Assembly: GCF_900091315.1 (NCBI RefSeq)
Contig: NZ_FLSP01000020.1
Span: 1 to 64,000, forward strand
DNA: 64,000 bases
Origin: Streptomyces sp. DI166
Lineage (GTDB): Bacteria; Actinomycetota; Actinomycetes; Streptomycetales; Streptomycetaceae
Direction: 5' to 3'
The translations under genes and the position numbers were made by a program. Numbering within the stretch: the stretch's first letter is position 1; each line of letters begins with the position of its first letter. A model generated the notes under the pieces. That model did not search any database. It saw nothing but the letters and a program-made list of their open reading frames with translations, and was not told the DNA's origin. Positions 11,435-26,482 of the stretch are shown here, piece by piece.

Positions 11435-11535
11435 GCGCCCGCCTCCTGTCGTTCGGTCTCTCCCACATCCCTGGCGAGCAGCGCGCCCGGTCAAACCACT
11501 TGCGGCCTGTGGTGGTCGCCACGAGCCTGGGACGC

Positions 11536-11964
11536 ATGAGCGACCACACCGCACGCCTCGACCATGTCGTCCTCTGGGTGAACGACCCGGTCGCGTCGGC
11601 CGAGTTCTACGAGAGGACACTCGGCACCGAGCCCGTGCGGCTGGCCGAGTACACCGAGGGCAAGGTTCCCTTCCCCTCGGTACGGCTGAACGAGGAGACC
11701 ATCATCGATCTGATGCCGTGGACCATGGCGGCCCGGATGACGATGCTCCCGGGCGCCGCGGACAGCGCGGGACACCCCGTCAACCACATCTGCGTCGCCC
11801 TGTCCGGGGCCGCCTTCGACGACCTGCTCGGCCGTCTGCGGGGCAGCACGGTGCCGGTCTCGGAGATCTCCCACGGCTCCTTCGGCGCCCGCGGCCCGGC
11901 CGCGCGCAGCTTCTACTTCCGCGACCCGGACGGCAACGTCTTCGAGGCCCGCCACTACGACTGA
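11536..11964 (+). CDS. VOC-superfamily (glyoxalase/bleomycin resistance-like) protein
   Basis: A 142-residue two-module VOC protein. RLDHVVLWVNDPVASAEFYERTLG opens the first beta-alpha-beta-beta-beta unit, and VNHICVALSGAAFDDL opens the second, ending FYFRDPDGNVFEARHYD. H10, H84 and E137 sit where the metal ligands of glyoxalase-type members usually lie. The substrate is unknown. The ATG at 11536 is preferred over one at 11500, since the family begins shortly before LDHV. It is divergent from psuG, with 101 bp between the starts. Confidence 0.8.
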   Translation: MSDHTARLDHVVLWVNDPVASAEFYERTLGTEPVRLAEYTEGKVPFPSVRLNEETIIDLMPWTMAARMTMLPGAADSAGHPVNHICVALSGAAFDDLLGRLRGSTVPVSEISHGSFGARGPAARSFYFRDPDGNVFEARHYD

Positions 11965-11997
11965 GGCCCCCGGGACCGCCCCGAGGGGTGCCGTGGC

Positions 11998-12552
11998 TCA
12001 GAACAGCGGCTCGGGCAGCACGCCCTCCAGCGCCAACAGCCTCCGCTTGGTCTCCACACCGCCGCCGAAGCCGCCGATGCCGCCGTCGCTCTCCACCACC
12101 CGGTGACAGGGCACCACCACCGGCAGCGGATTGGCGCCCATCGCCATGCCCACCGCCTGGGCCGCCCCCGGCTGCCCCACCCGCCGGGCCAGATCGCCGT
12201 AGCCCACCACGGAGCCGTACGGCACCCCGCCGGCCAGCTCGCGCAGCACCTCCCGGTTGAAACCCGAGATCAGCGACCAGTCCAGGGGCAGCTCGAAGCC
12301 CTGCCGCTCACCCGCGAAGTACGCCTTCAGCTGGCGTATCGCCTCGGCGAGCAGGGGGGAGCCGGGCTCCTCGACCGGCTCGCCGCCCAGCCGGGACGCG
12401 AGCCGTTCCAGAGCCCTGTCGCACACCGCGTCGGTGGCGTGGAAGACGACGTTGACCAGGCCCTCGCGGGTCGCGGCCAGCAGCAACGGACCGATGTCGG
12501 TACCGACGACGGCCCACACCACCCGCTGTTCGTACTGCCCATGGCTGTCCAT
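11998..12552 (-). CDS. ogt: Methylated-DNA--protein-cysteine methyltransferase
   Basis: A 184-residue suicide repair enzyme that moves alkyl groups from O6-alkylguanine to its own cysteine. The PCHRVV motif has the acceptor C149; the preceding region FNREVLRELAGGVPYGSVVGYGDLARRVG is the DNA-binding helix-turn-helix, with the arginine finger region at AAQAVGMAMGANP. The N-terminal domain is the usual RNase H-like fold. The ATG at 12552 lies 7 nt downstream of the -10 of a DNA-damage promoter, so the message is probably leaderless. Confidence 0.92.
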   Translation of the reverse strand: MDSHGQYEQRVVWAVVGTDIGPLLLAATREGLVNVVFHATDAVCDRALERLASRLGGEPVEEPGSPLLAEAIRQLKAYFAGERQGFELPLDWSLISGFNREVLRELAGGVPYGSVVGYGDLARRVGQPGAAQAVGMAMGANPLPVVVPCHRVVESDGGIGGFGGGVETKRRLLALEGVLPEPLF

Positions 12553-12559
12553 GCGTCCC

Positions 12560-12582
12560 ACCGTACGGCCCGCCACTGACAA
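12560..12582 (-). promoter_or_regulatory. PafBC-type DNA-damage promoter of ogt
   Basis: Read on the minus strand: TTGTCAGTG (12582-12574), 8 nt, then TACGGT (12565-12560), 7 nt before the ATG. This matches exactly the RecA-independent damage promoter described in mycobacteria (tTGTCRgtg-N8-TAnnnT). Confidence 0.8.
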
Positions 12583-12623
12583 CGCCCCGGGGCCGGTGCC
12601 GCGGCGGCCCCGGGGCGCGCCCG

Positions 12624-13499
12624 TCAGCCGTCCTGGACCGCCTCGCGGACCGCGTCGGGCTTGTTGGAGATGATCCCGTCCACCCCGTACCCGGCGACCC
12701 GCCGGGCGTCGGAGGCCTTGTCGACGGTCCAGGCGAAGACTTCCAGCGGACTGCCGTGCGCCCCGGTGAAGGCGTGCACGGCGGCCACCCAGCCGGTCGA
12801 GATCGAGCCGTGCGAGGGGTTGATCAGGTCGGTGAACTCGGAGTACGCGGGCAGCTCCGCCACGCTCGGCGTGCCGAGGAAGCCGGTCCTGACGGACGGC
12901 TTGAGCGCGTGCACGGTCCGGATGCTGTCCGCGCTGAAGCTCTGCACGATCAGCCGCGTGCCGACATGCTTCCGGTCGAGCCAGCCCTCGTTGCCGAGCA
13001 CCTTCAGGGTCTGCTGCTCGATGCCCGGGTACAGCACCGGGTTCTTGATCTCCAGCAGCAGCTTCTGGTGGTGCCGCTCGACCCGGCGCAGGTACTGCTC
13101 CAGCGTCGGCACGCGCGTGCCCGCGTATTCGGGGCCGAACCAGCTCCCGGCGTCCAGCCGGGCGATCTCCGCGGTGGTGAAGTCCTTCACCTTCCAGGGC
13201 GCCCGGTCCGGGAAGACCTCCTCGACGTCGGTGGTGCGCCGCAGATTGTCGTCGTGCAGGACGACCAGCTCACCGTCCTTGGTGCGCTGGACGTCGTTCT
13301 CGACCCATTCGATGTCCCGCTCGGCCGCCTCGTCGACGGCGGCGAGGGTGTTCTCGGGCGCGTAGGCCGAGGCGCCCCGGTGGGCGATGACCAGCGGCGG
13401 TTCCCCGCCGATGCCGCCCGCCAGGGCGGAGGTCGGCATCAGGACGGCGACGGCCCCCAGGAGCGCGGTGGTCGTGGCGGCGATGGCGCGCGCGTGCAT
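12624..13499 (-). CDS. glpQ: Secreted glycerophosphodiester phosphodiesterase
   Basis: A 291-residue protein with a signal peptide of about 27 residues (MHARAIAATTTALLGAV then PTSALA). The TIM-barrel GDPD catalytic set follows: the IAHRGASAYAPENT block with H40/R41, the acidic pair in EWVENDVQRTKDG, and LVVLHDD with H82. The family hydrolyses glycerophosphodiesters to glycerol-3-phosphate and an alcohol, usually for phosphate scavenging outside the cell. The ATG at 13499 has GAGGGAG six bases upstream. It is divergent from the MHYT gene, with 277 bp between; nothing else is recognised in that gap. Confidence 0.88.
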   Translation of the reverse strand: MHARAIAATTTALLGAVAVLMPTSALAGGIGGEPPLVIAHRGASAYAPENTLAAVDEAAERDIEWVENDVQRTKDGELVVLHDDNLRRTTDVEEVFPDRAPWKVKDFTTAEIARLDAGSWFGPEYAGTRVPTLEQYLRRVERHHQKLLLEIKNPVLYPGIEQQTLKVLGNEGWLDRKHVGTRLIVQSFSADSIRTVHALKPSVRTGFLGTPSVAELPAYSEFTDLINPSHGSISTGWVAAVHAFTGAHGSPLEVFAWTVDKASDARRVAGYGVDGIISNKPDAVREAVQDG

Positions 13500-13776
13500 G
13501 CGTACTCCCTCTGTCGAGGTCACGGACAGCACCACTGTGACAGCAGAGGGTGAACAACACGGGGTTGCGCGAGTGGCCGGAATGGCGTGGGGTGGTCCAA
13601 GTCCGTTCACCGCAGCCGCACAACTGGGGCAGGGCCGTGTTTCTTTGCCGGAAAATCGTTCGACCATTCCGGTGGGGGTCATACTCTCTGCCTCAACCCT
13701 GACCGCTCGGGCGGTCCTGGGAGGGGGCTCCTATCAGCACATTCCGGGACGTAAGAGGGCGGAAGGACAGCCGCGC

Positions 13777-14646
13777 ATGCAGGGCACGGTCGATGGATTC
13801 AGCTACGGCCTCGTCACACCCCTCGTGGCCTTCCTCATGGCCTGTCTCGGCGGTGCCCTCGGCCTGCGCTGCACCACCAGAGCCATGCTCGTCACCCGCT
13901 CCTGGCGGCCCGGCTGGCTCGCCCTCGGCTCGGCGGCCATCGGCTCCGGCATATGGACCATGCACTTCGTCGCCATGATGGGGTTCACCGTCGCGGAGAC
14001 CCCGATCCACTACGACCGGCCGATGACCTTCGCCAGCCTCGCCGTCGCCGTCGTCATGGTCGGCGTCGGGATCTTCATCGTCGGCTACAAGGGCGCCAGC
14101 GGCACCGCCCTGTTCACCGGCGGCACCATCACCGGACTCGGCATCGCGTCCATGCACTACCTGGGCATGGCGGGAATGGAGCTCAACGGCAGGCTGGAGT
14201 ACAACACGCTCACCGTGGCCGCCTCGGTGGTGATCGCCATGGCCGCGGCCACCGCCGCCCTGTGGGCCGCCGCACAGGTCCGGGGCTTCAGGTGGACCGT
14301 GGGCGCGAGCCTGGTCATGGGGCTCGCCGTCAGCGGCATGCACTACACGGGCATGGCCGCCCTGAGCGTCCATGTGCACGGCAGCGGGATCCCCGCGGAA
14401 GGCGACTCGCCCGCCGCCCTGCTCGCGCCCATGATGATCGGCCCGCTCGCCTTCCTGCTGCTGGCCGCGGTCGTCATGATGTTCGACCCTCTGATGGTCA
14501 TGGGCCGGCCCCACCCGGCCTCCGTCGACGACCACAAGCCCGGCATCCCCGCCCACCCCGCCGGCCCGCACACCGCCCGCCGCCCCCAGCTGCGCACCCG
14601 CCGCACCATCGCCGAACGCCGCCCCCGGACCCCGCAGAACCGCTGA
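13777..14646 (+). CDS. MHYT-domain integral membrane sensor
   Basis: A 289-residue protein with seven or more membrane segments and the repeated MHYT signature: MHFV at 62-65, MHYL at 126-129 and MHYT at 188-191. These Met/His motifs were proposed to bind copper and to sense a diatomic gas at the membrane. There is no attached output domain (no GGDEF, EAL or kinase), only a short basic, proline-rich tail. The ATG at 13777 follows GGAAGGA at a spacing of about 9. The role in Streptomyces is unknown. Confidence 0.85.
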   Translation: MQGTVDGFSYGLVTPLVAFLMACLGGALGLRCTTRAMLVTRSWRPGWLALGSAAIGSGIWTMHFVAMMGFTVAETPIHYDRPMTFASLAVAVVMVGVGIFIVGYKGASGTALFTGGTITGLGIASMHYLGMAGMELNGRLEYNTLTVAASVVIAMAAATAALWAAAQVRGFRWTVGASLVMGLAVSGMHYTGMAALSVHVHGSGIPAEGDSPAALLAPMMIGPLAFLLLAAVVMMFDPLMVMGRPHPASVDDHKPGIPAHPAGPHTARRPQLRTRRTIAERRPRTPQNR

Positions 14647-14656
14647 CCGGACCGCG

Positions 14657-14679
14657 TTGTCAGTGGGTGGCCGTACGGT
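14657..14679 (+). promoter_or_regulatory. PafBC-type DNA-damage promoter of uvrB
   Basis: TTGTCAGTG at 14657-14665, exactly 8 nt, then TACGGT at 14674-14679, with only 6 nt to the uvrB ATG. It is a perfect match to the RecA-independent damage promoter and implies a leaderless uvrB transcript. Confidence 0.85.
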
Positions 14680-14685
14680 GGATCC

Positions 14686-16809
14686 ATGCGGCCCGTTTCC
14701 AGCATCGAACGCACGGTGGCGCCCTTCGAGGTCGTCAGTCCCTACCAGCCCAGCGGCGATCAGCCGCAGGCCATCGCCGAGCTCGCCCGGCGCATCGAGG
14801 CGGGCGAGAAGGACGTCGTCCTGCTCGGCGCGACCGGCACCGGCAAGTCCGCCACCACCGCGTGGATGATCGAGCAGCTCCAGCGCCCCACCCTGGTCAT
14901 GGCGCCGAACAAGACCCTGGCCGCCCAGCTGGCGAACGAGTTCCGCGAGCTGCTGCCGAACAACGCCGTCGAATACTTCGTCTCGTACTACGACTACTAC
15001 CAGCCCGAGGCGTACGTCCCGCAGTCGGACACCTACATCGAGAAGGACTCCTCCATCAACGAGGAGGTCGAGCGGCTGCGCCACTCCGCCACCAACTCGC
15101 TGCTCACCCGCCGCGACGTCGTCGTGGTCGCCTCCGTCTCCTGCATCTACGGCCTGGGCACCCCGCAGGAGTACGTGGACCGGATGGTCCCGCTCAGGGT
15201 CGGCGAGGAGACCGACCGCGACCAGCTGCTGCGCCGCTTCGTGGACATCCAGTACACGCGCAACGACGCCGCCTTCGCCCGCGGCACCTTCCGGGTGCGC
15301 GGCGACACCATCGAGATCTTCCCGGTCTACGAGGAGCTGGCCGTCCGCATCGAGATGTTCGGCGACGAGATCGAGGCGCTGTCCACCCTGCACCCGATCA
15401 CCGGCGAGATCATCAGCGACGACCAGCAGCTCTACGTCTTCCCGGCCTCCCACTACGTCGCAGGCCCCGAGCGCATGGAGCGGGCCGTCAACGACATCGA
15501 GAAGGAGCTGGCCGAGCGCCTGGCCGAGCTGGAGAAGCAGGGCAAGCTCCTGGAGGCGCAGCGGCTGCGTATGCGCACCACCTACGACATCGAGATGCTC
15601 CGCCAGATCGGCACCTGCTCCGGCGTGGAGAACTACTCGATGCACTTCGACGGCCGCGAGCCCGGCTCCCCGCCGAACACGCTGCTGGACTACTTCCCGG
15701 ACGACTTCCTGCTCGTCATCGACGAGTCGCACGTGACCGTGCCGCAGATCGGCGCCATGTACGAGGGCGACGCCTCCCGCAAGCGCACCCTGGTGGAGCA
15801 CGGCTTCCGGCTGCCCTCGGCGCTGGACAACCGCCCGCTGAAGTGGGAGGAGTTCCAGGAGCGCATCGGCCAGACCGTCTATCTGTCGGCCACCCCGGGC
15901 CAGTACGAGCTCTCCCGCTCCGACGGCGCGGTCGAGCAGATCATCCGCCCCACCGGCCTGGTCGACCCCGAGGTCGTGGTCAAGCCGACCGAGGGGCAGA
16001 TCGACGACCTGGTGCACGAGATCCGCAAGCGCACCGAGAAGGACGAGCGGGTCCTGGTCACCACCCTCACCAAGAAGATGGCCGAGGACCTCACCGACTA
16101 CTTCCTGGAACTGGGCATCCAGGTCCGCTACCTGCACAGCGACGTCGACACCCTGCGCCGTGTGGAGCTGCTGCGCGAACTGCGCGCCGGTGAGTACGAC
16201 GTCCTGGTCGGCATCAACCTGCTGCGCGAGGGCCTGGACCTGCCCGAGGTGTCCCTGGTGGCCATCCTCGACGCCGACAAGGAGGGCTTCCTCCGCTCGG
16301 GGACCTCCCTCATCCAGACCATCGGCCGTGCCGCGCGCAACGTCTCCGGCCAGGTCCATATGTACGCCGACAAGATCACCCCGGCGATGGAGAAGGCCAT
16401 CGAGGAGACCAACCGCCGCCGGGAGAAGCAGGTCGCCTACAACAAGGCCAACGGCATCGACCCGCAGCCGCTGCGCAAGAAGATCAACGACATCGTGGCG
16501 CAGATCGCCCGCGAGGACGTCGACACCGAGCAGCTCCTCGGCACCGGCTACCGCAAGACCAAGGACGGCAAGGGCGCCAAGGCCCCGGTGCCCTCGCTCG
16601 GCACCAAGGCGAAGGCCAGGGGCAAGGCCAAGGAGACGGTGCCCACCGATCGCCCGGCCGCCGAACTGGCCGAGCAGATCGAGGAGATGACCGAGCGGAT
16701 GCGTGCCGCCGCGGCGGATCTGCAGTTCGAGATCGCGGCCCGGCTGCGCGACGAGGTCTCCGAGATGAAGAAGGAACTGCGCCAGATGAAGGAGGCGGGC
16801 ATCGCGTGA
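14686..16809 (+). CDS. uvrB: Excinuclease ABC subunit B
   Basis: A full-length 707-residue helicase-like subunit of the UvrABC excinuclease, which verifies damage and loads UvrC. Walker A GATGTGKS is at 48-55, the DEAD-like DESH box at 346-349, the beta-hairpin region [14 protein letters not shown] near 96-110, and the C-terminal helicase half includes [12 protein letters not shown] domain that contacts UvrC lies at about 660-700 ([16 protein letters not shown]...F.IAARLRDE). A Lys/Ala-rich linker around 620-655 ([10 protein letters not shown]) is typical of Streptomyces. The start is ATG 14686, placed directly after the damage promoter. Confidence 0.97.
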
Positions 16810-16880
16810 CGGGGCGGGCGGTACACCCGGGGACGCGCAGTGTTGCAAGACCGACACAAAGTGCGGCCCTGGGTACGGCA

Positions 16881-16903
16881 CTGTCAGTGCCCCTGCGTAG
16901 GGT
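16881..16903 (+). promoter_or_regulatory. PafBC-like promoter upstream of terD
   Basis: CTGTCAGTG at 16881-16889, 8 nt, then TAGGGT at 16898-16903. It differs from the uvrA/uvrB/ogt version only at the first base. The terD start is 57 nt downstream of the -10, with a normal ribosome site, so this transcript would have a leader. Confidence 0.65.
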
Positions 16904-16960
16904 TCAGGTCATCCGCGGGCTCCGCGGCCAACAGGGGACGTTCGAGAGGGGAAACAGCGC

Positions 16961-17539
16961 GTGACCGTCAACATGACCAAGGGTCAGGCCATCAGTCTGC
17001 AGAAGAGCGACGGCGGCAGCCTGACCGCGGTGCGCATGGGTCTCGGCTGGCAGGCGGCCCCGCGGCGTGGCCTGTTCGGCTCGCGCACCCGGGAGATCGA
17101 CCTGGACGCCTCCGCGGTCCTGTTCGCCGACAAGCAGCCGGTCGACGTGGTCTTCTTCCGTCACCTGGTGAGTGACGACGGCTCGGTCCGGCACACCGGT
17201 GACAACCTGGTCGGCGGTGTCGGCCAGGGCGGCGACGACGAGGCCATCCTCGTCGACCTGCAGCGGGTCCCGGTCCACATCGACCAGATCGTCTTCACCG
17301 TGAACTCCTTCACGGGCCAGACCTTCCAGGAGGTGCAGAACGCCTTCTGCCGCCTGGTCGACGAGACCAACGGCCAGGAGCTGGCCCGCTACACGCTCGC
17401 GGGCGGCGGCGCCTACACGGCCCAGATCATGGCCAAGGTGCACCGCAACGGCACCAACTGGACGATGACGGCCCTCGGCACGCCCGCCAACGGCCGCACC
17501 TTCCAGGACCTGATGCCCGCGATCCTGCCGCACCTGTAA
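16961..17539 (+). CDS. terD: TerD-family tellurium/stress resistance protein
   Basis: A 192-residue single TerD domain. It contains the conserved strand pattern KGQAISLQK, GLGW, EIDLDASAVLFA, and the acidic calcium-binding segment around GGVGQGGDDEAILVDLQRVP, then QIVFTVNSFTGQTFQEVQNAFCRLVD. TerD proteins bind Ca2+ and are linked to tellurite, phage and envelope stress. GTG 16961 follows GAGAGGGGA. A strong hairpin separates it from the larger TerD fusion gene downstream. Confidence 0.92.
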   Translation: MTVNMTKGQAISLQKSDGGSLTAVRMGLGWQAAPRRGLFGSRTREIDLDASAVLFADKQPVDVVFFRHLVSDDGSVRHTGDNLVGGVGQGGDDEAILVDLQRVPVHIDQIVFTVNSFTGQTFQEVQNAFCRLVDETNGQELARYTLAGGGAYTAQIMAKVHRNGTNWTMTALGTPANGRTFQDLMPAILPHL

Positions 17540-17557
17540 AGCCCAGGGGCATTCCGT

Positions 17558-17606
17558 CCGGATCGGCCCGGTGCCGCGGCCGCCCCGCGGTACCGGGCCG
17601 ATCCGG
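17558..17606 (+). terminator. Strong intrinsic hairpin after terD
   Basis: A perfect 15-bp stem: CCGGATCGGCCCGGT (17558-17572) pairs with ACCGGGCCGATCCGG (17592-17606), with further GC pairing inside the 19-nt loop. No U-run is present. Confidence 0.7.
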
Positions 17607-17680
17607 GTGACAGACCACAGTGGCGCGCGCGTACGCGCACCGCACGACACCGGACACAGCGACACAGGGGGACGAAGGCG

Positions 17681-19681
17681 ATGACGGCCGAGCTGGTGCG
17701 GGGGCAGAACCACCCGCTTACCCAGGTCCGTCTGGAGATCCGGGTCTCGGCCGGCGCGCCGATCGTGGCGGGAGCCACGCTCGGCGACGAGGACGGCCGG
17801 ATCCACGGCACGGAGTGGGTGGCCCATCCGGGCTCGCCCACCCTGCCGGGCCTGGAGGTCTCCCGGCAGGCCGCGGCGGACCACCGTCTCGCGGTGGACC
17901 TGGACGCCGTACCGGAAGCCGTGCACCGGGTCAGCGTGCTGCTCGCCCTGCCCACGGGCGTGGGCGGACCGGTCCGCTTCGGCGCGCTCGCCGCCCCCTT
18001 CGTCGCGGTCACCGGACTGGACGGCTCCGAGGTGGCCAGCTACACCATCACCGGCCTGGACGCCGAGTCCGCCGTCATCGCCCTGGAGCTCTACCGCCGC
18101 CAGGGCGCCTGGAAGGTGCGCGCCATCGGCCAGGGCTACGCGGGCGGCCTCGCCGAGCTCCTCGCCGACCAGAACCTGCCCGAGGCCGGACCGCTGGCAG
18201 GCCGCATCAACGAGGCGGTGGCCCAGGGCCTGGCCCGTTCCGTCCCGGCCCCGCCCAGCCGCACCGCCGACACCAGCGACCGGCACCGGCCGCAGACCGC
18301 GCCCGCGGTCGGCCCCGACCAGAACGGCACCGCACCCACCTCGCCCTACGGCACCCAGGGCGCCCCGGGGCCCGTACCGCCCACGCCGCCCGCCGCGCCG
18401 TACGGAGGACAGCCGCCGCAGAACACGACCCCGGCGCAGGGCGACCCGTCCGCCACCGGCGGCGGCGTCAACTACAGCCACCCGCGCCGCCAGACCGCCC
18501 CGCCGCCCCCCGCCCCGCCCGCGCCCCCGGCGCAGCCCGGTCAGCCGGGGCAGCCCGTCGCCGGTGACGCGACCGGCTGGTCCATGGAGGAGCGGCTCTA
18601 CAACCAGGTCTGGGGCATGTTCGAGGACCTGGCCCGGACCGCGGCGGCCTACCGCAGCGCCGTCGACTTCGCCGACTCGCGCATGGAGAAGGAGCTGGAC
18701 CACGTCCTGTCCGACCCGCGCAGCCGGATCGGCGGCCAGGGGGACGCGGCCCGTGAGGCGGCCCAGGCCAAGCGGGCCCAGCTCGTGGACCAGGCCCGGG
18801 CCGGTCTCGACCGGGACGTCGCCCAGCTCAAGGCGGAGTCGGACGTCGTCGAGCCCGCCCTGCCCCCGGCGTACGCCCGCTGGGACAACCCGGTCTGGCA
18901 CGCCTACCGGGTGCCGATGGAGACGCCCATGGCGCTGCGTCTGGGCGATCTGCGGCTGCCCGAGGCCGAGGAGCTGAGCATCCCGATGCTGGTCCGGCTG
19001 CCGCTGGAGCGGGGCCTGTGGATCGACAGCGGCCAGTCCCCTTCGCTGGACGGCGCCTTCCACGACTCGCACGAACTGCGCCGGCTCGCCCTGGACGCGG
19101 CCGTGGCACACGCGGCCCGGCTGCTCGCCGTGTACCCGGCCGGGGACTTCACTGTCCATGTCATCGACCCGGCCGGTTCCGGCGCCCAGGCGCTCGCGCC
19201 GCTGGTGCAGACCGGAGTGCTGGCGGGGCCGCCTGCGGCCGGCGCGGCGGGGGTGACCGATGTGCTCGGCCGGCTGACCCAGCGCGTGGACCTGGTGCAG
19301 ATGGCGGTGCGCGGCGGCGCCCCGGAGTCGCTGCCGCCCGGCTTCGACACCTCCGAGCAGCTGCTGATCGTCAACGACTTCCCGCACGGCTTCGACGACC
19401 GGGCCGTGAACCAGCTGCGCTACCTCGCCGACGAGGGCCCGTCCGTCGGGGTCCATCTGATGATGGTCGCCGACCGCGAGGAGGCCTCCGCCTACGGCCC
19501 GCTGCTGGACCCGCTGTGGCGTTCGCTGCTGCGCCTCACGCCGGTGCCCGAGGACCACCTCGCCGACCCCTGGGTGGGGCACGCCTGGACCTACGAGCCC
19601 CCGCTCGTGCCGCCCGGCAGCCAGGTGCTCCAGCAGGTGCTGACCCAGGTCGCCGAGGCGCGCCGCGCATGGAACCGGTGA
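17681..19681 (+). CDS. TerD-domain protein fused to a degenerate FtsK/SpoIIIE-like domain
   Basis: A 666-residue mosaic. Residues 1-185 are a TerD-like beta-sandwich (VRLEIRVSAGAPIVAG, VASYTITGLDAESAVIALELYRRQGAWKVRAIGQGYAGGLAELL). Residues 190-298 are a Pro/Ala/Gly/Gln-rich linker, and 300-395 are helical and charged. Residues 430-650 resemble an FtsK/SpoIIIE RecA fold: SIPMLVRLPLERGLWID, then LRRLALDAAVAHAARLLAVY, FTVHVIDPAG, LTQRVDLVQ and SVGVHLMMVADR. The Walker A GxxGxGKS expected after the first strand is missing (IDSGQSPSLDGAFHDSHE instead), and the Walker B strand ends LLIVNDF rather than DE. ATP hydrolysis is therefore unlikely. The ATG at 17681 is the only start near the domain edge. 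Confidence 0.8.
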   Translation: MTAELVRGQNHPLTQVRLEIRVSAGAPIVAGATLGDEDGRIHGTEWVAHPGSPTLPGLEVSRQAAADHRLAVDLDAVPEAVHRVSVLLALPTGVGGPVRFGALAAPFVAVTGLDGSEVASYTITGLDAESAVIALELYRRQGAWKVRAIGQGYAGGLAELLADQNLPEAGPLAGRINEAVAQGLARSVPAPPSRTADTSDRHRPQTAPAVGPDQNGTAPTSPYGTQGAPGPVPPTPPAAPYGGQPPQNTTPAQGDPSATGGGVNYSHPRRQTAPPPPAPPAPPAQPGQPGQPVAGDATGWSMEERLYNQVWGMFEDLARTAAAYRSAVDFADSRMEKELDHVLSDPRSRIGGQGDAAREAAQAKRAQLVDQARAGLDRDVAQLKAESDVVEPALPPAYARWDNPVWHAYRVPMETPMALRLGDLRLPEAEELSIPMLVRLPLERGLWIDSGQSPSLDGAFHDSHELRRLALDAAVAHAARLLAVYPAGDFTVHVIDPAGSGAQALAPLVQTGVLAGPPAAGAAGVTDVLGRLTQRVDLVQMAVRGGAPESLPPGFDTSEQLLIVNDFPHGFDDRAVNQLRYLADEGPSVGVHLMMVADREEASAYGPLLDPLWRSLLRLTPVPEDHLADPWVGHAWTYEPPLVPPGSQVLQQVLTQVAEARRAWNR

Positions 19682-19731
19682 CCTCACACGGCCTTTACAA
19701 AGCAATCGTAAAGCGGTCCTGACCTGGGATT

Positions 19732-19762
19732 TTGGTCTTTATTTTACTTAGCTCTTTACCTT
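19732..19762 (+). promoter_or_regulatory. Candidate terC promoter in an AT-rich patch
   Basis: TTGGTC (19732-19737), a 19-nt spacer, and TACCTT (19757-19762) sit in an AT-rich stretch (19690-19770) that contrasts with the rest of the window. Transcription from about 19769 would include the whole riboswitch. Spacing is slightly long, so this is tentative. Confidence 0.3.
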
Positions 19763-19792
19763 TCCTTGGTGGTGGGGGTACTCTCGTCCGTA

Positions 19793-19936
19793 CGGAGGGG
19801 AGTACTCCCTGACTGCTGCGGCGTACCCGTCAATACGGATCCGGTCGGATCCCGGGGCGCCGGCCCGACCTTGGGTGGAAGAGACCTCCGGCAGCGACGA
19901 CAACGCTGACTCATTGCCGTGACGTACTGCCGGAGG
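19793..19936 (+). promoter_or_regulatory. Probable yybP-ykoY (manganese) riboswitch with SD-masking expression platform
   Basis: The leader of terC has the hallmarks of the yybP-ykoY aptamer: a closing stem CGGAGG (19793-19798) with CCTCCG (19885-19890), a GGGGAGTA loop element (19797-19804) just inside it, GC-rich hairpins in between, and AAGAGACC just before the closing strand. The 3' closing strand CCTCCGGCAG (19885-19894) is also perfectly complementary over 10 nt to CTGCCGGAGG (19927-19936), which contains the terC ribosome-binding GGAGG. The two pairings are mutually exclusive, so ligand binding would release the ribosome site (translational ON). The aptamer call rests on motif recall; the alternative pairing is directly visible. 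Confidence 0.7.
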
Positions 19937-19940
19937 CGCA

Positions 19941-20942
19941 GTGGATGTTTCCGTGACCCTGTGGGTCCTCACGATCGTGGGCCTCGCCGCCCTGATCGCG
20001 GTCGACTTCTTCATCGGCCGCAAACCGCACGACGTGTCCATCAAGGAAGCCGGCATCTGGACCGTGGTCTGGATCGCCCTGGCCGGGCTCTTCGGCCTCG
20101 GCCTGCTGGTCTTCGGGGGCGGACAGCCCGCCGGTGAGTTCTTCGCCGGCTTCATCACCGAGAAGTCGCTGAGCGTCGACAACCTCTTCGTCTTCGTGCT
20201 GATCATGGCGAAGTTCGCCGTGCCCTCGCAGTACCAGCAGCGCGTGCTGCTCGTCGGTGTGCTCATAGCCCTGGTGCTGCGCGCGATCTTCATCGCCGCC
20301 GGAGCCGCGATCCTCGCCAGCTTCGCCTGGGTGTTCTACCTCTTCGGCGCCTTCCTGATCTGGACCGCCTGGAAGCTCATCCAGGAGGCCCGGTCCGGCG
20401 ACGAGGAAGAGGAGTTCGAGGAGAACAAGCTCCTCAAGGCCGCCGAGCGCCGCTTCGGCGTCGCCGACCGCTACCACGGCACCAAGCTGTGGATCCAGCA
20501 GAACGGCAAGCGGGTCATGACCCCGATGCTCGTCGTGATGCTCGCGATCGGCACCACGGACGTCCTGTTCGCCCTGGACTCCATCCCCGCGATCTTCGGC
20601 CTGACCCAGGACCCGTACATCGTCTTCACGGCCAACGCCTTCGCCCTGATGGGCCTGCGGCAGCTGTACTTCCTCATCGGCGGCCTGCTCAGGAAGCTGG
20701 TCCACCTCAGCTACGGCCTGTCGATCATCCTCGGCTTCATCGGCGTGAAGCTGGTGCTGCACGCCCTGCACGAGTCCGGGGTGCACGTCCCGGAGATCAG
20801 CATCCCGGTCTCCCTCGGCGTGATCTGCTCGGTCCTGGTCGTCACCACGATCACCAGCCTCCGGGCCTCGCGGAAGCAGGCGGAGGCGGAAGCGGCGCGC
20901 ACGGAGAGCGAGGGCGCTCCGAAGGACAGCATCGGCGCCTGA
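19941..20942 (+). CDS. terC: TerC-family integral membrane metal (probably Mn2+) exporter
   Basis: A 333-residue protein with about nine membrane helices. The paired acidic membrane motifs of the family are visible: SLSVDNLFVFVLIMAKF near 73-90 and IGTTDVLFALDSIPAIFGLTQ near 195-215, followed by RQLYFLIGGLLRKL. A charged cytoplasmic loop (GDEEEEFEENK) splits the two halves. Characterised relatives (Alx, MeeF/MeeY) export manganese, which fits the riboswitch-like leader. GTG 19941 lies four bases after GGAGG; a second GTG at 19953 is too far from it. Confidence 0.9.
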   Translation: MDVSVTLWVLTIVGLAALIAVDFFIGRKPHDVSIKEAGIWTVVWIALAGLFGLGLLVFGGGQPAGEFFAGFITEKSLSVDNLFVFVLIMAKFAVPSQYQQRVLLVGVLIALVLRAIFIAAGAAILASFAWVFYLFGAFLIWTAWKLIQEARSGDEEEEFEENKLLKAAERRFGVADRYHGTKLWIQQNGKRVMTPMLVVMLAIGTTDVLFALDSIPAIFGLTQDPYIVFTANAFALMGLRQLYFLIGGLLRKLVHLSYGLSIILGFIGVKLVLHALHESGVHVPEISIPVSLGVICSVLVVTTITSLRASRKQAEAEAARTESEGAPKDSIGA

Positions 20943-20966
20943 CCACGTCGGACGTAGAAAGAACCG

Positions 20967-21012
20967 TCACCGGGAGGGGTGCCTGGCGATTGCCGCGCAC
21001 CGCTCCCGGTGA
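20967..21012 (+). terminator. Two-part hairpin downstream of terC
   Basis: TCACCGGGAG (20967-20976) pairs with CTCCCGGTGA (21003-21012), and the inner GGTGC (20978-20982) pairs with GCACC (20997-21001). It is followed by TTGCTTTGTTC. Confidence 0.6.
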
Positions 21013-21071
21013 TTGCTTTGTTCTGAGCGCGTTCCCCGGCCCGGGGGCGCAGTGGCCGGCGGAGGTTTTCC

Positions 21072-21371
21072 GTGAAGTTCGTGCAGATCATCGACTTCGA
21101 GACCGAGCGGCTCGACGAAATGGAGCAGCTGGTCGAGGAGGCGCGGCAGGGCATGGCGGCCAAGGAAGGCGGTCCCACCCACCGCATCCTCCTCAAGGAC
21201 CGTGACACGCCGGGGCGTTACCTCGCCCTCATCGAGTTCGACTCCTACGAGGAGGCCATGCGCAACAGCGCGGACCCCGACACGAGCAAGATGGCCGAGC
21301 AGATGGGCGCGCTGTGCACGCGTGAGCCCCGCTACGTCAACTGCGATCTGGTGGAATCCAGCGACCTGTGA
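21072..21371 (+). CDS. Small ferredoxin-fold (ABM/dimeric alpha-beta barrel-like) protein
   Basis: A 99-residue protein starting at GTG 21072 with GGAGG six bases upstream. KFVQIIDFETERLDEMEQLVEEARQ, THRILLKDRDTPGRYLALIEFDSYEEAMRNS and RYVNCDLVE give the beta-alpha-beta pattern of stress-response or antibiotic-biosynthesis-monooxygenase-like dimers. There is no clear catalytic residue, so I assign the fold only. It sits between two hairpins and is probably monocistronic. Confidence 0.65.
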   Translation: MKFVQIIDFETERLDEMEQLVEEARQGMAAKEGGPTHRILLKDRDTPGRYLALIEFDSYEEAMRNSADPDTSKMAEQMGALCTREPRYVNCDLVESSDL

Positions 21372-21389
21372 CGGTCCGGCACCCGGGTG

Positions 21390-21422
21390 ACGGGCCCCGT
21401 ACGGCCGACGTGCGGGGCCCGT
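21390..21422 (+). terminator. Hairpin between the ABM-like gene and the antiporter gene
   Basis: A perfect 10-bp stem ACGGGCCCCG (21390-21399) / CGGGGCCCGT (21413-21422) with a 13-nt loop, followed by TCCCCTTT. Confidence 0.65.
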
Positions 21423-21444
21423 TCCCCTTTGCGACGATCACTGC

Positions 21445-22545
21445 ATGATCACTCGGGTCAGGGCGCTCACCCTTCCGTGGACGTCCGTCGTGCCGGTGCT
21501 CGCGGTCGTCCTGCTGGTGTTCACCTGGGGCCGGGACCTGCCCGGCGTGGTCGTCGGCGTGGTGACGGTGGTGCTCGCCGGGGCCGTCCTGGCCGCCGTC
21601 CACCACGCGGAGGTCGTCGCCCACCGGGTCGGGGAGCCCTTCGGCTCCCTGGTCCTGGCGGTCGCCGTGACGGTCATCGAGGTCGCCCTGATCGTCACCC
21701 TGATGGTGGACGGCGGCGCCAAGGGCGCGACCCTGGCCCGCGACACCGTGTTCGCGGCCGTGATGATCACCTGCAACGGCATCGTCGGCCTGTGCCTCCT
21801 GGTCGGCTCCCTGCGCCACGGCACCGCGGTCTTCAACCCCGAGGGCACCGGCGCCGCCCTCGCCACCGTGGCCACCCTCGCCACCCTCAGCCTGGTCCTG
21901 CCGACCTTCACCACCAGCAAACCCGGCCCGGAGTTCTCCAGCGTCCAGCTGACCTTCGCCGCGCTCTCCTCGCTGATCCTGTACGGCCTGTTCGTCGCGA
22001 CCCAGACCGTCCGGCACCGCGACTACTTCCTGCCCCTCACCAAGCACGGTGAGGTCATCACCGCCGACAGCCACGCCGAGGCGCCCTCCGCGCGCACCGC
22101 GCTGATCAGCCTGGGCCTGCTGGGCCTGGCGCTGATCGGGGTGGTCGGCCTGGCCAAGGCGGTGTCGCCCACCATCGAGTCGGTCGTGGAGTCGGCCGGC
22201 CTCAAACACGCCGTCGTCGGCGTCATCATCGCCCTGCTGGTCCTGCTGCCCGAGACAATCGCCGCACTGCGCGCCGCCCGCCGCGACCGGGTGCAGACCA
22301 GCCTCAACCTCGCCCTCGGCTCCGCGATGGCCAGCATCGGACTGACCATCCCCGCGGTCGCCCTGGCCACGATCTGGCTCTCCGGACCACTGATCCTGGG
22401 TCTCGGCCCCACCCACATGCTGCTGCTCGTGCTGACCGTCGTGGTGGCCTCCCTGACGGTGGTGCCGGGGCGGGCCACACCCCTCCAGGGAGGGGTGCAC
22501 CTGGTGATCTTCGCCGCCTACCTGGAGCTGGCGATCAATCCATGA
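21445..22545 (+). CDS. chaA: Ca2+(Na+)/H+ antiporter, ChaA family
   Basis: A 366-residue CaCA-superfamily antiporter with about eleven membrane segments. The two alpha-repeat signatures are GEPFGSLVLAVAVTVIEVALIV, with the membrane Glu, in the first half and LPETIAALRAARRDRVQ then LGSAMASIGLTIPAV in the second. It would extrude calcium or sodium in exchange for protons. The ATG at 21445 is the first start after the upstream hairpin. Its last 11 bases overlap the 3' end of the convergent MFS gene. Confidence 0.88.
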   Translation: MITRVRALTLPWTSVVPVLAVVLLVFTWGRDLPGVVVGVVTVVLAGAVLAAVHHAEVVAHRVGEPFGSLVLAVAVTVIEVALIVTLMVDGGAKGATLARDTVFAAVMITCNGIVGLCLLVGSLRHGTAVFNPEGTGAALATVATLATLSLVLPTFTTSKPGPEFSSVQLTFAALSSLILYGLFVATQTVRHRDYFLPLTKHGEVITADSHAEAPSARTALISLGLLGLALIGVVGLAKAVSPTIESVVESAGLKHAVVGVIIALLVLLPETIAALRAARRDRVQTSLNLALGSAMASIGLTIPAVALATIWLSGPLILGLGPTHMLLLVLTVVVASLTVVPGRATPLQGGVHLVIFAAYLELAINP

Positions 22546-23839
22546 CCGGCTCCCGCGCGGGGACCGACGCCGGGCGGGTCTCCGGCAGCAGCGCGAAGCA
22601 GCACAGGCTGAGCAGCGCGATCCCGGTCAGATACGCCCCCACGCCCCACGGCACCCGACCGCCCTGCTCGGTGAGCGCGGTCGCCGCGATCGGCGTGAGC
22701 GCCCCGCCCAGCACCCCGCCGAGGTTGTAGCCGACAGCCGCCCCGGTGCAGCGCACCCGGGGCTCGTACAGCTCCGGCAGATAGGCGGCGATCACCGCGA
22801 ACATCGTGATGAACGCCAGCATCGCCCCCAGGAACCCGACGAACATCAGCACCGGCTCCCCGGTCGCCAGCAGCGCCACCAGCGGAAGCATCCAGACCGC
22901 CGCTGCCGCGCACCCCGCCAGGCACAGCGGCCGCCGCCCGTACCGGTCCCCGAGCAGCGCGAACACCGGCGTCAGCGCCCCCTTCACCAGGACCGCCGCC
23001 ATGATGCAGACCAGCATGACCGTACGGCTCACCCCGAGCCGTTCGGTCGCGTAGGCGAGGGACCAGGTGGTCACCGCGTAGAAGATCGCGTACCCGATGG
23101 CCAGGGCCCCGGCCGTCAGCAGGACCAGCCGCCAGTGGTCGCGCACCACTTCGGCGAGCGGCACGCGCGCGGGCTCGTCGATCTGCAGGAACTGCGGGCT
23201 CTCGGCGAGCGAGGACCGCAGCCACAGTCCGGCCACCGCGAGCACGCCCGCCGCCCAGAACGGGACCCGCCAGCCCCACTCGGCGAACTGCGCCTCCGAC
23301 AGCGTGGCCGCCAGCAGCAGCGTCACCCCGTTCGCCAGCAGGAAGCCGACCGCCGGGCCGATCTGCGGAAAGCTCGACCACAGCCCGCGCCGCCCGGCGG
23401 GCGCGTGCTCCGCCGTGAGCAGCACCGCCCCGCCCCACTCCCCGCCGAGCCCGAGCCCCTGCAGGAACCGCAGCACGAGCAGCAGCACCGGGGCCGCCAC
23501 GCCGATCGTGTCGTACGTCGGCACACAGCCGACCGCCACCGTGGAGGCCCCTGTCAGCAGCAGCGAGGCGACGAGCACCGGCCGCCGCCCGTGCCGGTCG
23601 CCGATGTGCCCGAACAGCACGGAGCCGAGCGGCCGGGCCACGAACCCGACCCCGAACGTCCCGAACGCGGCGAGGGTCCCCGCGACCGGCGAGAACGTGG
23701 GGAAGAACAGCGGCCCCAGGACCAGCGCCGCCGCGGTCCCGTAGACGAAGAAGTCGTAGAACTCGATGGCCGTCCCGGCGAGCGAGGCAGCCGCGAGCCG
23801 GAGCATGGAAGGCGCCTTTGCGGTGCGTACGTCGTGCAT
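22535..23839 (-). CDS. MFS transporter of the metabolite:H+ symporter (MHS) family
   Basis: A 434-residue 12-helix transporter. Residues 22-34 (GTAIEFYDFFVYG) are the first-helix signature of the MHS family (KgtP, ShiA, ProP), followed by GVGFVARPLGSVLFGHIGDRHGRRP in the loop between helices 2 and 3, RFLQGLGLGGEWGGAVLL in helix 4, and GDRYGRRP in the second half. The substrate is probably an organic acid, shikimate or a compatible solute. The ATG at 23839 is chosen because the family starts close to this position. Confidence 0.85.
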   Translation of the reverse strand: MHDVRTAKAPSMLRLAAASLAGTAIEFYDFFVYGTAAALVLGPLFFPTFSPVAGTLAAFGTFGVGFVARPLGSVLFGHIGDRHGRRPVLVASLLLTGASTVAVGCVPTYDTIGVAAPVLLLVLRFLQGLGLGGEWGGAVLLTAEHAPAGRRGLWSSFPQIGPAVGFLLANGVTLLLAATLSEAQFAEWGWRVPFWAAGVLAVAGLWLRSSLAESPQFLQIDEPARVPLAEVVRDHWRLVLLTAGALAIGYAIFYAVTTWSLAYATERLGVSRTVMLVCIMAAVLVKGALTPVFALLGDRYGRRPLCLAGCAAAAVWMLPLVALLATGEPVLMFVGFLGAMLAFITMFAVIAAYLPELYEPRVRCTGAAVGYNLGGVLGGALTPIAATALTEQGGRVPWGVGAYLTGIALLSLCCFALLPETRPASVPAREPVMD

Positions 23840-23892
23840 GCCGCGTCAACCACCCGCGGTGACCGAGGGTTACGGGGGCGCGGCCCGGATGC

Positions 23893-24939
23893 TCAGTACG
23901 TGACGGTGATGCGCCGGGCCGGGCCGTCGACGCGGACCAGACCGCCGTAGGGGATCACGAGTTGCGGGTCGGTGTGGCCGAAGTCCACGTCGAACACGAT
24001 GGTGGTGTCGGGCGCGTAGATGCGCATGGCGCGCAGTACCGCCTCGCGCTGCTCCTCGGCGTAACGCGCCGCCTCCTCGGGGCTGTTGGGGCGGTCGAAG
24101 GACCAGGTCCTCGCGCGGCCCATCAGCAGCGCGGAGAAGCGCTGGAGCAGTCCGCGCTCGCCCATGTTGCGCAGGGTGCGGAAGACCTCCGCGCCGCTCG
24201 GCATCTCCTCGGAGGTCTCCAGGAACAACACGCCGCCGTCGTAGACGCTCAGGTCGTGGGAGATCTCGCGGTCGGCCATCAGCAGCCAGCCCAGGATCTC
24301 CAGACAGCCGCCCCAGCTGCGGCCCTCCACCACGCGCTCGGCGTTCACCCAGGACCAGTCGGCGGCCGGACGCATCGGCGGTTCCGACTGGAAGGCGGCG
24401 GGGTCGGCCCAGTCGCGGCTGATGTCGTTCCAGCTCTCGGCGGGCGTGAGTTCGTAGGGGCCCGAGGTGAACAAAGCCGCGCGCAGCGAGTGCGCCGTCA
24501 GCGGGTTCATGGCGCCGGGGCGGCCCAGTTCACACATGACGGTAGCGCCGTGGTAGCTGACGATGCCGGTGTTCCACAGATAGGCGAGCAGGTTGGTGTT
24601 GTCGCTCATCCCGATGAACGGCTTGGGGTTGGCGCGGATCAACTCCCGGTCCAGGTACGGCAGTACGGTGATCTGGTCGTCGCCGCCGATGGACGCGATC
24701 ACCGCCTTGACGTCCGGGTCGGCGAAGGCGGCGTTGACGTCGGCGGCCCGTGCCTGGGGCGTGGCGCCCATGGTGCGGGTCGTCGGGTACTCGACGGGTT
24801 CGAGGTCGTACTCCTTGCGCAGCCGCTCCAGCCCTAGTTCGTAGGGGAGCGGGAAGAGTCCGGGCAGACCGGCTCCGGCCGAGATGACGGCTATGCGGTC
24901 GCCGGGGGAAGGCTTGGGCGGATACGAGATCGTCGTCAT
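23893..24939 (-). CDS. S66-family LD-carboxypeptidase / MccF-like peptidase
   Basis: A 348-residue cytoplasmic hydrolase with the S66 Ser-Glu-His triad: S112 in FIGMSDNTN, E214 in GGCLEILGWLL and H322 in DVDFGHTDPQ. Members remove the terminal D-Ala from the murein tetrapeptide during cell-wall recycling (LdcA) or cleave microcin C-like aminoacyl-nucleotides for self-immunity (MccF). The extended middle part (about 160-210) is nearer to MccF-type proteins, but no antibiotic cluster is near. The ATG at 24939 is 8 nt from a TACGCT -10-like element. Confidence 0.87.
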   Translation of the reverse strand: MTTISYPPKPSPGDRIAVISAGAGLPGLFPLPYELGLERLRKEYDLEPVEYPTTRTMGATPQARAADVNAAFADPDVKAVIASIGGDDQITVLPYLDRELIRANPKPFIGMSDNTNLLAYLWNTGIVSYHGATVMCELGRPGAMNPLTAHSLRAALFTSGPYELTPAESWNDISRDWADPAAFQSEPPMRPAADWSWVNAERVVEGRSWGGCLEILGWLLMADREISHDLSVYDGGVLFLETSEEMPSGAEVFRTLRNMGERGLLQRFSALLMGRARTWSFDRPNSPEEAARYAEEQREAVLRAMRIYAPDTTIVFDVDFGHTDPQLVIPYGGLVRVDGPARRITVTY

Positions 24940-25046
24940 GCCGTCGCAGCGTACGGGCCGTCACCGTCCGCTCGCACCGTGATAAACCGGGTCCCAGCAG
25001 CGGCCCTTCGAACGGGGCCGCCCACGTCTGACGGACCGGAGGAACC

Positions 25047-25520
25047 GTGCCCCGCACCCTGGCCAACGCCCCGATCATGATCCTCAACGGCCCCAATCTG
25101 AACCTGCTCGGGCAGCGGCAGCCCGAGATCTACGGCTCCGAGACGCTCGCCGACGTCGAGGCGATGTGCGCGAAGGCGGCGGCCGCGCACGGCGGGACGG
25201 TGGACCTGCGCCAGTCCAACCACGAGGGGCAACTGGTCGACTGGATCCACGAGGCGCGTACCGGCCACTGCGGCATCGTGATCAACCCGGGCGCCTACTC
25301 GCACACGTCCGTCGCGATCCTGGACGCGCTCAACACCTGCGACGGCCTGCCAGTGGTGGAGGTCCACATTTCCAACATCCATCGCCGGGAGTCCTTCCGG
25401 CACCACTCCTACGTCTCGCTACGCGCCGACGGGGTCATCGCCGGCTGCGGGGTGCAGGGCTATGTGTTCGGAGTGGAGCGGGTGGCTGCCCTGGTGGGGG
25501 CGGGGCGGGCCGAGGCCTGA
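25047..25520 (+). CDS. aroQ: Type II 3-dehydroquinate dehydratase
   Basis: A 157-residue type II dehydroquinase, third step of the shikimate pathway and a homododecamer in this family. The active-site segment [17 protein letters not shown] carries the flexible-lid Arg and the catalytic Tyr. [17 protein letters not shown] and [19 protein letters not shown] carry the substrate-binding Asn/Ser and the catalytic His. GTG 25047 follows GGAGG. It stands alone, apart from other aro genes. Confidence 0.95.
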
Positions 25521-25654
25521 CAGCCCTGGGCCGCCGGTCGAGGGCGGGGATGTGACCGGCGGCCCGTACCGCGCAGGAGCCGTCATCCTGCTGCGGAATG
25601 CTTTCAGTTGACTACGCCACGGCACGCGCCGGGAGCGCGCGCGGTGCGCGGGTA

Positions 25655-25673
25655 CGTGTGAATGATTCACACG
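25655..25673. repeat. Perfect 19-nt palindrome
   Basis: CGTGTGAAT-G-ATTCACACG is a perfect inverted repeat with a single central base, in the 296-bp gap between aroQ and the convergent metallo-hydrolase gene. It is not followed by a U-run, so it looks more like an operator or replication/structural site than a terminator. Confidence 0.6.
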
Positions 25674-25740
25674 GGGCGCGCGGAACGTGTCGTACGCCCC
25701 GCGCGCGCACTGTGCCGAGCCACCGGCGCGCGTGAATCGT

Positions 25741-25842
25741 CACGCGCCCCGCGTGCACTCCGAAGTTCACTACCGGCGCGCGCCCCGAAGTGCACAACCC
25801 GCGCGCAGCCCGCGGCTCACCACCCGCGCGCGTGCCACTCCG
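25741..25842. repeat. Degenerate ~25-bp tandem repeats reaching into a gene 3' end
   Basis: Units start with CAC at 25741, 25768, 25793 and 25818 (spacings 27, 25 and 25) and share an ACCCGCGCGC / CCGGCGCGCG core; less regular copies extend back to about 25670. The last unit covers the stop codon and final residues (HARGW) of the minus-strand metallo-hydrolase gene, so the array looks like degenerate copies of that gene's 3' tip. Confidence 0.6.
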
Positions 25843-26473
25843 GCAGACGCGGGCGCTCCGCGCCCAGCGTCGTGTCCTTGCCGTGCCCCGGGTACACCCA
25901 GGTCTCGTCCGGGAGCGCGTCGAAGATCTTCGTCTCGACGTCGTGGATCAGGCTCGCGAACGCCTTCGGGTCCTTGAAGGTGTTGCCCACCCCGCCGGGG
26001 AAGAGGCAGTCCCCGGTGAACACATGGGGATGCCCGTGCGGGTCGTCGTAGACCAGGGCGATCGAGCCCGGCGTGTGCCCGACCAGGTGGCGCGCGGTCA
26101 GCTCCACGCGCCCCACGCGGATCACATCGCCGTCGTCGACCAGGACGTCGGTGGGCACGGGGATGCCCTCGGCGTCCTCGCGCCCCGCGTAGGTGCGCGC
26201 GCCGGTGGCCTCGACGACCTCCGCGAGCGCCTGCCAGTGGTCGCCGTGCCGGTGGGTGGTGACGACGGACCTGATGCCGTCGTCACCGATCATGCCGAGC
26301 AGCACCCGCGCGTCGTTCGCCGCGTCGATCAGCAGCTGCTCGTCCGTGGCCCGGCAGCGCAGCAGATAGCAGTTGTTGTCCATCGGGCCGACCGCGATCT
26401 TGGTGATCATCAGGTCCTTGAGCTCGTGCACGTCCGCCGGGCCGCCGACCGTCACCTCTCCGCTGTACGTCAT
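25817..26473 (-). CDS. MBL-fold metallo-hydrolase (glyoxalase II-like)
   Basis: A 218-residue metallo-beta-lactamase-fold protein. The THRHGDH motif (H74, H76, D78, H79) binds two metal ions, with further ligands in LVGHTPGSIAL, VFTGDCLFPGGVG and VYPGHGKDT. The size and the GDCLF...PGHG pattern fit hydroxyacylglutathione-hydrolase-like enzymes; in a mycothiol organism a mycothiol thioester is a plausible substrate, which is inference. The next gene upstream belongs to the mycothiol-dependent isomerase fold. The ATG at 26473 is the first Met before the domain. Confidence 0.85.
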   Translation of the reverse strand: MTYSGEVTVGGPADVHELKDLMITKIAVGPMDNNCYLLRCRATDEQLLIDAANDARVLLGMIGDDGIRSVVTTHRHGDHWQALAEVVEATGARTYAGREDAEGIPVPTDVLVDDGDVIRVGRVELTARHLVGHTPGSIALVYDDPHGHPHVFTGDCLFPGGVGNTFKDPKAFASLIHDVETKIFDALPDETWVYPGHGKDTTLGAERPRLPEWHARGW

Positions 26474-26482
26474 GTCCTGAGC

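Follow-up and report, generated by a model that had tools for sequence, protein, structure and literature searches.

What can a protein do that joins a TerD domain to a DNA-translocase-like domain when both parts lack the functional residues typical of their families? This question is raised by one open reading frame of Streptomyces sp. DI166 (17681-19681, + strand, 666 aa plus stop codon; labelled TFs here), which was analyzed within a window of 64,000 nucleotides (NZ_FLSP01000020.1, positions 1 to 64,000). An earlier sequence-only reading had placed it between terD and terC and proposed a TerD sensor joined by a long flexible linker to a catalytically dead domain of FtsK/SpoIIIE type. Family profiles verified the placement, with terD (16961-17539) and terC (19941-20942) on either side, and TFs is a real gene that also has uvrB as a close neighbor. 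The features of the locus are:

14686-16809, + strand: presumably uvrB (named from its sequence), in the same direction as terD, TFs and terC
16961-17539, + strand: TerD, 192 aa, acidic residues kept, proposed partner of TFs (Pfam, 145.8 bits)
17681-19681, + strand: TFs, 666 aa, degenerate TerD domain, linker, coiled coil and predicted pseudo-FtsK domain
17681-18175, + strand: TFs residues 1-165, TerD fold without most of the conserved acidic positions (PF02342, 3ibz, acidic-position count)
18236-18577, + strand: TFs residues 186-299, disordered Pro/Gly/Ala-rich linker
18584-18859, + strand: TFs residues 302-393, two long helices predicted to form a coiled-coil or stalk-like hairpin (models of the full-length protein and of the domain alone)
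18878-19660, + strand: TFs residues 400-660, predicted FtsK/EssC-type RecA-fold pseudo-ATPase (EssC and FtsK structure alignments)
19025-19066, + strand: TFs residues 449-462, site of the missing Walker A motif or P-loop (no GK[ST] in 115/115)
19355-19420, + strand: TFs residues 559-580, Walker B-equivalent strand and (N/H)DFPxG motif (identity, dN/dS, residue counts)
19941-20942, + strand: TerC/Alx family membrane protein, 333 aa, syntenic neighbor (TIGR03718, 384.2 bits, cut-off 246.4)

The linker was confirmed as long and flexible (residues 186-299, pLDDT <50, 27% Pro). Structure prediction added an element absent from the earlier reading, a coiled coil between linker and pseudo-ATPase, whose hairpin helices span residues 302-343 and 353-393 in the full-length model. 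No transmembrane segment was found in TFs by hydropathy, as its highest 19-residue Kyte-Doolittle mean was 1.37, compared to 2.86 for TerC and 1.30 for UvrB; the protein is probably cytosolic.

In the predicted model, the C-terminal domain presents its RecA elements in the order strand 446-449, P-loop site, helix 463-484 and strand 490-495, followed by helix 521-544, strand 559-567, helix 573-585 and strand 591-597. Residues 408-665 aligned to EssC (5fv0_A, 968-1228, D2 by position) with a Z score of 18.8 over 221 residues (3.8 Å), and the model gave Z 18.1 with D2 of EccC (also by position), 17.4 with D2 of EccCb1 (9jv8), up to 17.3 with FtsK motors (6t8b_B), 17.1 with the conjugation coupling protein TcpA and 12.2 with the DUF of EccC5 (8rin_A). 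The ESX-3 EccC chain 6sgz_J, with an alignment spanning both stalk-DUF and D2, reached Z 11.7 at an rmsd of 10.0, and unrelated RecA proteins reached at most Z 9.7 among the best 50 matches. Modeling the C-terminal domain alone produced a similar list of structures (Z up to 15.1). Foldseek likewise matched the predicted model to the FtsK type (prob 1.00), and its first list also included ABC transporters, which had lower probabilities and high rmsd values. Model confidence was moderate, with a mean pLDDT of 59 for the full-length protein and 64 for the domain alone, most core blocks of the domain lying at about 65-89. Pfam and NCBIfam identified no C-terminal family in TFs; PF01580 was absent from TFs and from 18/18 C-terminal domains, and a profile of the domain searched against PDB sequences returned chance matches only (best E 1.2). 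At the level of predicted structure, an FtsK/EssC-type RecA fold is confirmed for residues 400-665: model, structure alignment and distant homology agree with the FtsK/SpoIIIE-type strand order seen in the sequence, and the combined structure and profile comparison with FtsK gave a RecA-like rather than an unrelated fold.

The nucleotide site of this fold has degenerated. Between strand 446-449 and helix 463-484, the P-loop site reads DSGQSPSLDGAFHD, which contains no lysine, and neither GxxxxGK[ST] nor GK[ST] occurs anywhere in 115 homologous sequences (108 of them distinct, window copy included). The Walker B pair is N565-D566, so the hhhhDE pattern is missing; position 565 is N in 108/115 sequences, H in 7/115 and never D, and position 566 is D in 113/115 and E in 2/115. 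The missing Walker A lysine and the ND pair, both noted beforehand from the sequence, therefore hold. V564, F567, P568 and G570 are kept in 115/115 sequences. Across regions (median dN divided by median dS, 28 pairs each), the P-loop site (449-462; median identity 57%, dN/dS 0.44) drifts like the linker (186-297; median identity 58% to homologues, dN/dS 0.45), and its loop, variable in both sequence and length, shows much lower conservation than the remainder of the domain. The Walker B strand (559-580), which ends in (N/H)DFPxG, is nearly invariant (median identity 95%, dN/dS 0.16), and the whole pseudo-FtsK domain has a dN/dS of 0.19. With the three folded parts at 0.19-0.26 over 28 comparisons, TFs is under purifying selection. 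Since the P-loop site drifts and the Walker B strand is near-invariant, selection keeps a surface and not a nucleotide pocket. Judged by sequence and predicted model, the C-terminal domain qualifies as an FtsK fold in which neither Walker A nor Walker B is functional, as in the EccC DUF. The proposed dead FtsK/SpoIIIE-type domain is thus upheld as regards its predicted RecA fold and a P-loop absent from every homologous sequence examined.

The same data bear on a receptor reading, in which the dead ATPase fold or the TerD fold would bind a nucleotide-like ligand or metabolite non-canonically, without hydrolysis. PMC7159879 lists TerD among nucleotide-binding domains and proposes that it recognizes specialized nucleotide derivatives, which would fit such a receptor; the variable P-loop-site loop argues against it, as does the comparable DUF of EccC5, which was reported not to bind nucleotide (PMC11154593). 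On balance, we regard a receptor function as improbable.

Genome searches provided distant relatives of the dead domain, with all tallies being lower bounds because part of the first-look candidates was scored (e.g., 6/31 for the C-terminal-half profile). This profile matched at least 13/296 genomes of the phylum: nine of the same genus, two from another family of the same class (G374 and G195), whose TerD-coiled coil-pseudo-domain proteins follow the same plan as TFs, and two with larger proteins (G319 and G277). A profile extended by distant relatives matched at least 23/396 genomes. In the larger protein of G319 (L142), a helical N-terminus is followed by the pseudo-domain and then by an FtsK_SpoIIIE motor with an intact GAVGQGKS; its pseudo-domain matched TFs with an E value of 8e-14 in a single BLAST comparison and an hhalign probability of 97.2, and a D(F/Y)PxG motif is common to TFs, L142 and L143. 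A local profile aligned nine segments outside the genus, from eight proteins that include the TFs orthologues L140 and L141. GxxxxGK[ST] was present in 5/9 segments and lay within the best match in none, and in L142, L161 and L162 (L161 and L169 being parts of one protein) the best match to the TFs profile precedes the intact P-loop motif. Homologues therefore bear out the absent Walker A, their motifs falling outside the best-matching stretch. The nearest exception is the G007 match to the TFs C-terminus (E 7.8e-5), an EccC-like protein and not a TFs orthologue, in which the matching stretch (1019-1200) is preceded by GATRSGRS at 1001, a Walker A with Arg for Lys. Weak matches that the local profile search did not recover (L163, L165, L166 and L168) were left uncounted; L167 gave short, weak alignment pieces only, and L164 gave short matches and has no P-loop. 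Because the P-loop of the larger relatives lies in another domain, the pseudo-domain was probably dead before it joined TerD, and by sequence the loss of the P-loop is probably old. A recent loss of ATPase function was dropped as an explanation, since the motor-bearing relatives also have no P-loop in this domain.

This architecture invites a reading in which TFs regulates a split motor: the pseudo-FtsK domain would dock in trans on an active FtsK-, HerA- or EccC-type ATPase, replacing the cis motor of its relatives, and TerD input would gate that motor. L142, L161 and L162, which carry the same domain N-terminal to one with an intact P-loop, speak for it, as do 14 FtsK_SpoIIIE profile matches in the DI166 genome, several of them within single large proteins. 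However, none of the 14 lies beside TFs on the contig of the window and none is TFs itself, and a second pseudo-domain was not found in this genome among the first-look candidates scored (5/63). We consider a split motor unlikely, if worth keeping in view.

The motor parts of L142, L188 and L189 matched SspH and mad8 models in PADLOC, and those of four relatives matched SspH, mad8 and HerA models; TFs and TerD themselves matched no PADLOC model. Around the FtsK-like relatives, the neighboring genes at three loci encode HSP70 and a DnaJ-like protein, a kinase and a ClpB-like ATPase, and a thiolase among other products. At L189:5769-11775, the FtsK-like motor with pseudo-domain follows an HSP70 gene and a zinc-ribbon/DnaJ/TPR gene. 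At L190:7531-17722, genes for a protein kinase and a ClpB-like AAA protein lie near an FtsK-like motor; L190 is the neighborhood of L163, whose relation to TFs comes from one profile search (E 1.3e-7). A linked defense or stress theme among these relatives was dropped, as their gene neighborhoods differ. A search of seven genomes that carry FtsK-like or other distant matches yielded no TerD gene, and TerD matches numbered 12 in G374 and 13 in G195.

The N-terminal half is degenerate as well. Pfam TerD (PF02342) matched TFs with 67.5 bits (cut-off 25.3) over profile positions 85-185 only, and in the predicted model residues 9-168 aligned to S. coelicolor TerD (3ibz) with Z 18.0 over 154 residues, and the domain to 2kxt with Z 14.1. 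In canonical TerD, acidic residues act as Ca2+ ligands. Numbered on the TerD of L001:1501-2055, the positions D38, D40, D68, D76, D85 and E87 are kept in 84/84 neighboring TerD proteins, and D, E or N occupies them in 1, 0, 0, 0, 0 and 0 of 84 TFs proteins, respectively; a shortened segment of the TFs domain falls among the lost positions. Two alignments gave the same count for these six positions and differed at N77 (E in 82/84 versus a gap). D86 is D, E or N in 80/84 TFs proteins and E137 in 78/84, so a weak residual ion binding by these two is possible as far as residue identities indicate. Since the acidic residues conserved in the neighboring TerD are lost, Ca2+ sensing by the TFs TerD domain is unlikely. 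Of the TerD sensor proposed earlier, the domain is clearly present and the sensor role is what falls away.

TFs is conserved in most of the Streptomyces examined. A match to its C-terminal part was obtained in at least 124/147 genomes of the order, 123 from the same genus and one being the EccC-like protein of G007, and TFs occurs in at least 123 of at least 132 genus-mates. It is not universal, as nine listed genus-mates gave no TFs match, nor did the other listed genera of the order except for G007. Such gaps could suggest an ordinary TerD paralogue whose function resides in the TerD part alone, the C-terminal half being a neutral relic that could be lost. That reading is highly improbable: by dN/dS, the constraint on the tail is no weaker than that on the TerD domain (0.19 and 0.21 versus 0.26), and it is the TerD part of TFs that has lost its typical acidic residues.

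Gene context links TFs to an intact TerD. The terD gene lies directly upstream of TFs in 84/84 genus loci (median gap 62.5 bp, range 36-261) and terC is present in 82/84, although synteny within one genus is expected anyway and independent linkage comes from two genomes of a single further genus. A close TerD persists in seven of the nine listed genus-mates that have no TFs match, so TerD can do without TFs; in 9-kb slices of these seven genomes, three showed uvrB-terD-terC, three showed uvrB-terD with terC missing and one showed only terD. In the two genomes of the other genus, G374 and G195, the TFs orthologue is preceded by a gene for a TerD-TerD fusion protein. Its first domain shares 39.6% (G374) and 39.5% (G195) identity with the TerD domain of window TFs, and its second domain 58% and 54% with window TerD. 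In the G374 fusion, the one whose acidic positions were compared, the first domain has lost most of them but retains D40, and the second has them intact. At the sequence level, the fusion gives the strongest hint that both TerD types may act together in pairs.

Other features of these neighborhoods were also recorded. In G374, the genes for the TerD-TerD fusion and the TFs orthologue have three divergent, Pfam-confirmed AIM24 genes as neighbors (L144:5266-7360), and open reading frames similar to AIM24 genes lie divergently beside the corresponding genes at L145:7818-9901. In the DI166 genome, a TerD gene (L013, G000:C26:1344-1730) lies about 1 kb from an AIM24 gene (G000:C26:2701-3246), so the TerD-AIM24 association recurs. 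The TerD domain of Streptomyces TFs is closer to the degenerate TerD of the fusion at L144:7622-8113 (39.6%) than to the TerD domain of the TFs orthologue from the latter's own genome (34.2%), a similarity hinting at domain shuffling. The S. coelicolor orthologue of TFs is, we assume, SCO1964. In published lists, SCO1965 is given both as export-associated and as a protein of tellurium resistance.

Control of the locus by damage- and metal-responsive elements, as the sequence-only reading had it, found no support. Allowing one mismatch, the LexA-like motif GAACNNNNGTTC was absent upstream of terD, TFs and uvrB and matched 19 times in the window versus 17.07 expected; only two one-mismatch matches fell within 12100-27000, one inside uvrB and one inside terC, which is chance frequency. 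Rfam returned nothing at gathering score for 10000-26000 and a single chance match for 19600-20000 (12.4 bits versus 37.8), and no sigma-70 promoters or terminators were found in 16700-20100. Much of the gap between terD and TFs is filled by a 22-bp inverted repeat (17558-17606, 95% complementary, 5-nt loop), equal to 21 pairs in the pair count, where 100 shuffles gave at most 15. A conserved terminator at this place was dropped, as the best terD-TFs hairpin over 84 loci has a median of 6 pairs (at least 12 pairs in 17/84) and most of these gaps are shorter than that of the window.

To our knowledge, it is unclear how TerD proteins pass on a signal. Because both the TerD acidic residues and the ATP-binding site are lost, TFs is probably a building or linking part and not an enzyme. 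Our tentatively preferred reading, which we rate slightly short of an even chance, is a non-catalytic adaptor that combines a docking or oligomerizing pseudo-FtsK surface with a TerD domain that pairs with the intact TerD encoded upstream. The C-terminal half would then be a stand-alone relative of the N-terminal pseudo-ATPase module of larger FtsK-like motors, and the conserved (N/H)DFPxG strand region would provide the oligomerizing or docking surface. The degenerate TerD domain would serve as an assembly domain; an ion or ligand would be sensed by the intact TerD, and TFs would relay the resulting state to a partner, with linker and coiled coil carrying a pseudo-FtsK domain that binds itself or that partner. 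Pairing with TerD, oligomerization and the downstream partner are the steps that we infer, and the scaffold role in a Ter-type stress complex that the sequence-only reading suggested is plausible. A more specific sensor-scaffold complex, in which the Ca2+-blind TerD domain of TFs caps the Ca2+-binding TerD and pseudo-FtsK domains form a non-hydrolyzing full or partial ring, seems doubtful to us. If it were true, the Ter stress response of most Streptomyces examined would use an ion-gated scaffold derived from a ring that once translocated DNA or protein. Returning to the adaptor, TFs has two domains without their typical functional residues and stands beside an intact TerD in every locus examined. 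It offers a definite candidate for how the Ter response is wired, and TerD and TFs form a testable protein pair in tractable Streptomyces.

The individual parts of TFs are of known kinds, and their combination was not found described. In the literature searched, with most subscription journals outside its scope, no description of a TerD-pseudo-FtsK fusion, no paper on a TerD domain as a pseudoenzyme and no occurrence of SCO1964 were found. Canonical TerD (3ibz, 2kxt) has the TerD beta-sandwich in common with the TFs N-terminus and differs in its six conserved acidic positions, which TFs has lost. PMC7159879 describes FtsK-related domains predicted to be inactive in conflict systems of multicellular prokaryotes, but no system of this kind was recognized beside TFs. 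The FtsK-like proteins L142, L143, L161/L169 and L162 bear an N-terminal pseudo-domain homologous to TFs, and in L142, L161/L169 and L162 an intact P-loop follows in a downstream domain, whereas TFs ends after the pseudo-domain. By predicted structure, the best known counterparts of the TFs tail are the degenerate domains of EccC. EccC/EssC of type VII secretion shares with TFs an FtsK-type RecA fold with a degenerate nucleotide site, and in the EccC stalk-DUF a helical hairpin precedes the dead domain, as in TFs. For EccC5, PMC11154593 reports a DUF that comes after stalk helices, has degenerate Walker motifs and is proposed to play a structural role; an extended helix occupies its P-loop site, in place of the variable loop predicted for TFs. 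EccC/EssC differs further in having transmembrane helices, of which TFs has none by hydropathy, and in placing three RecA domains (D1-D3) after the DUF, whereas TFs has a single RecA domain and an N-terminal TerD. Degenerate FtsK domains have until now been characterized best as parts of type VII secretion ATPases, and TFs adds a stand-alone member to them.
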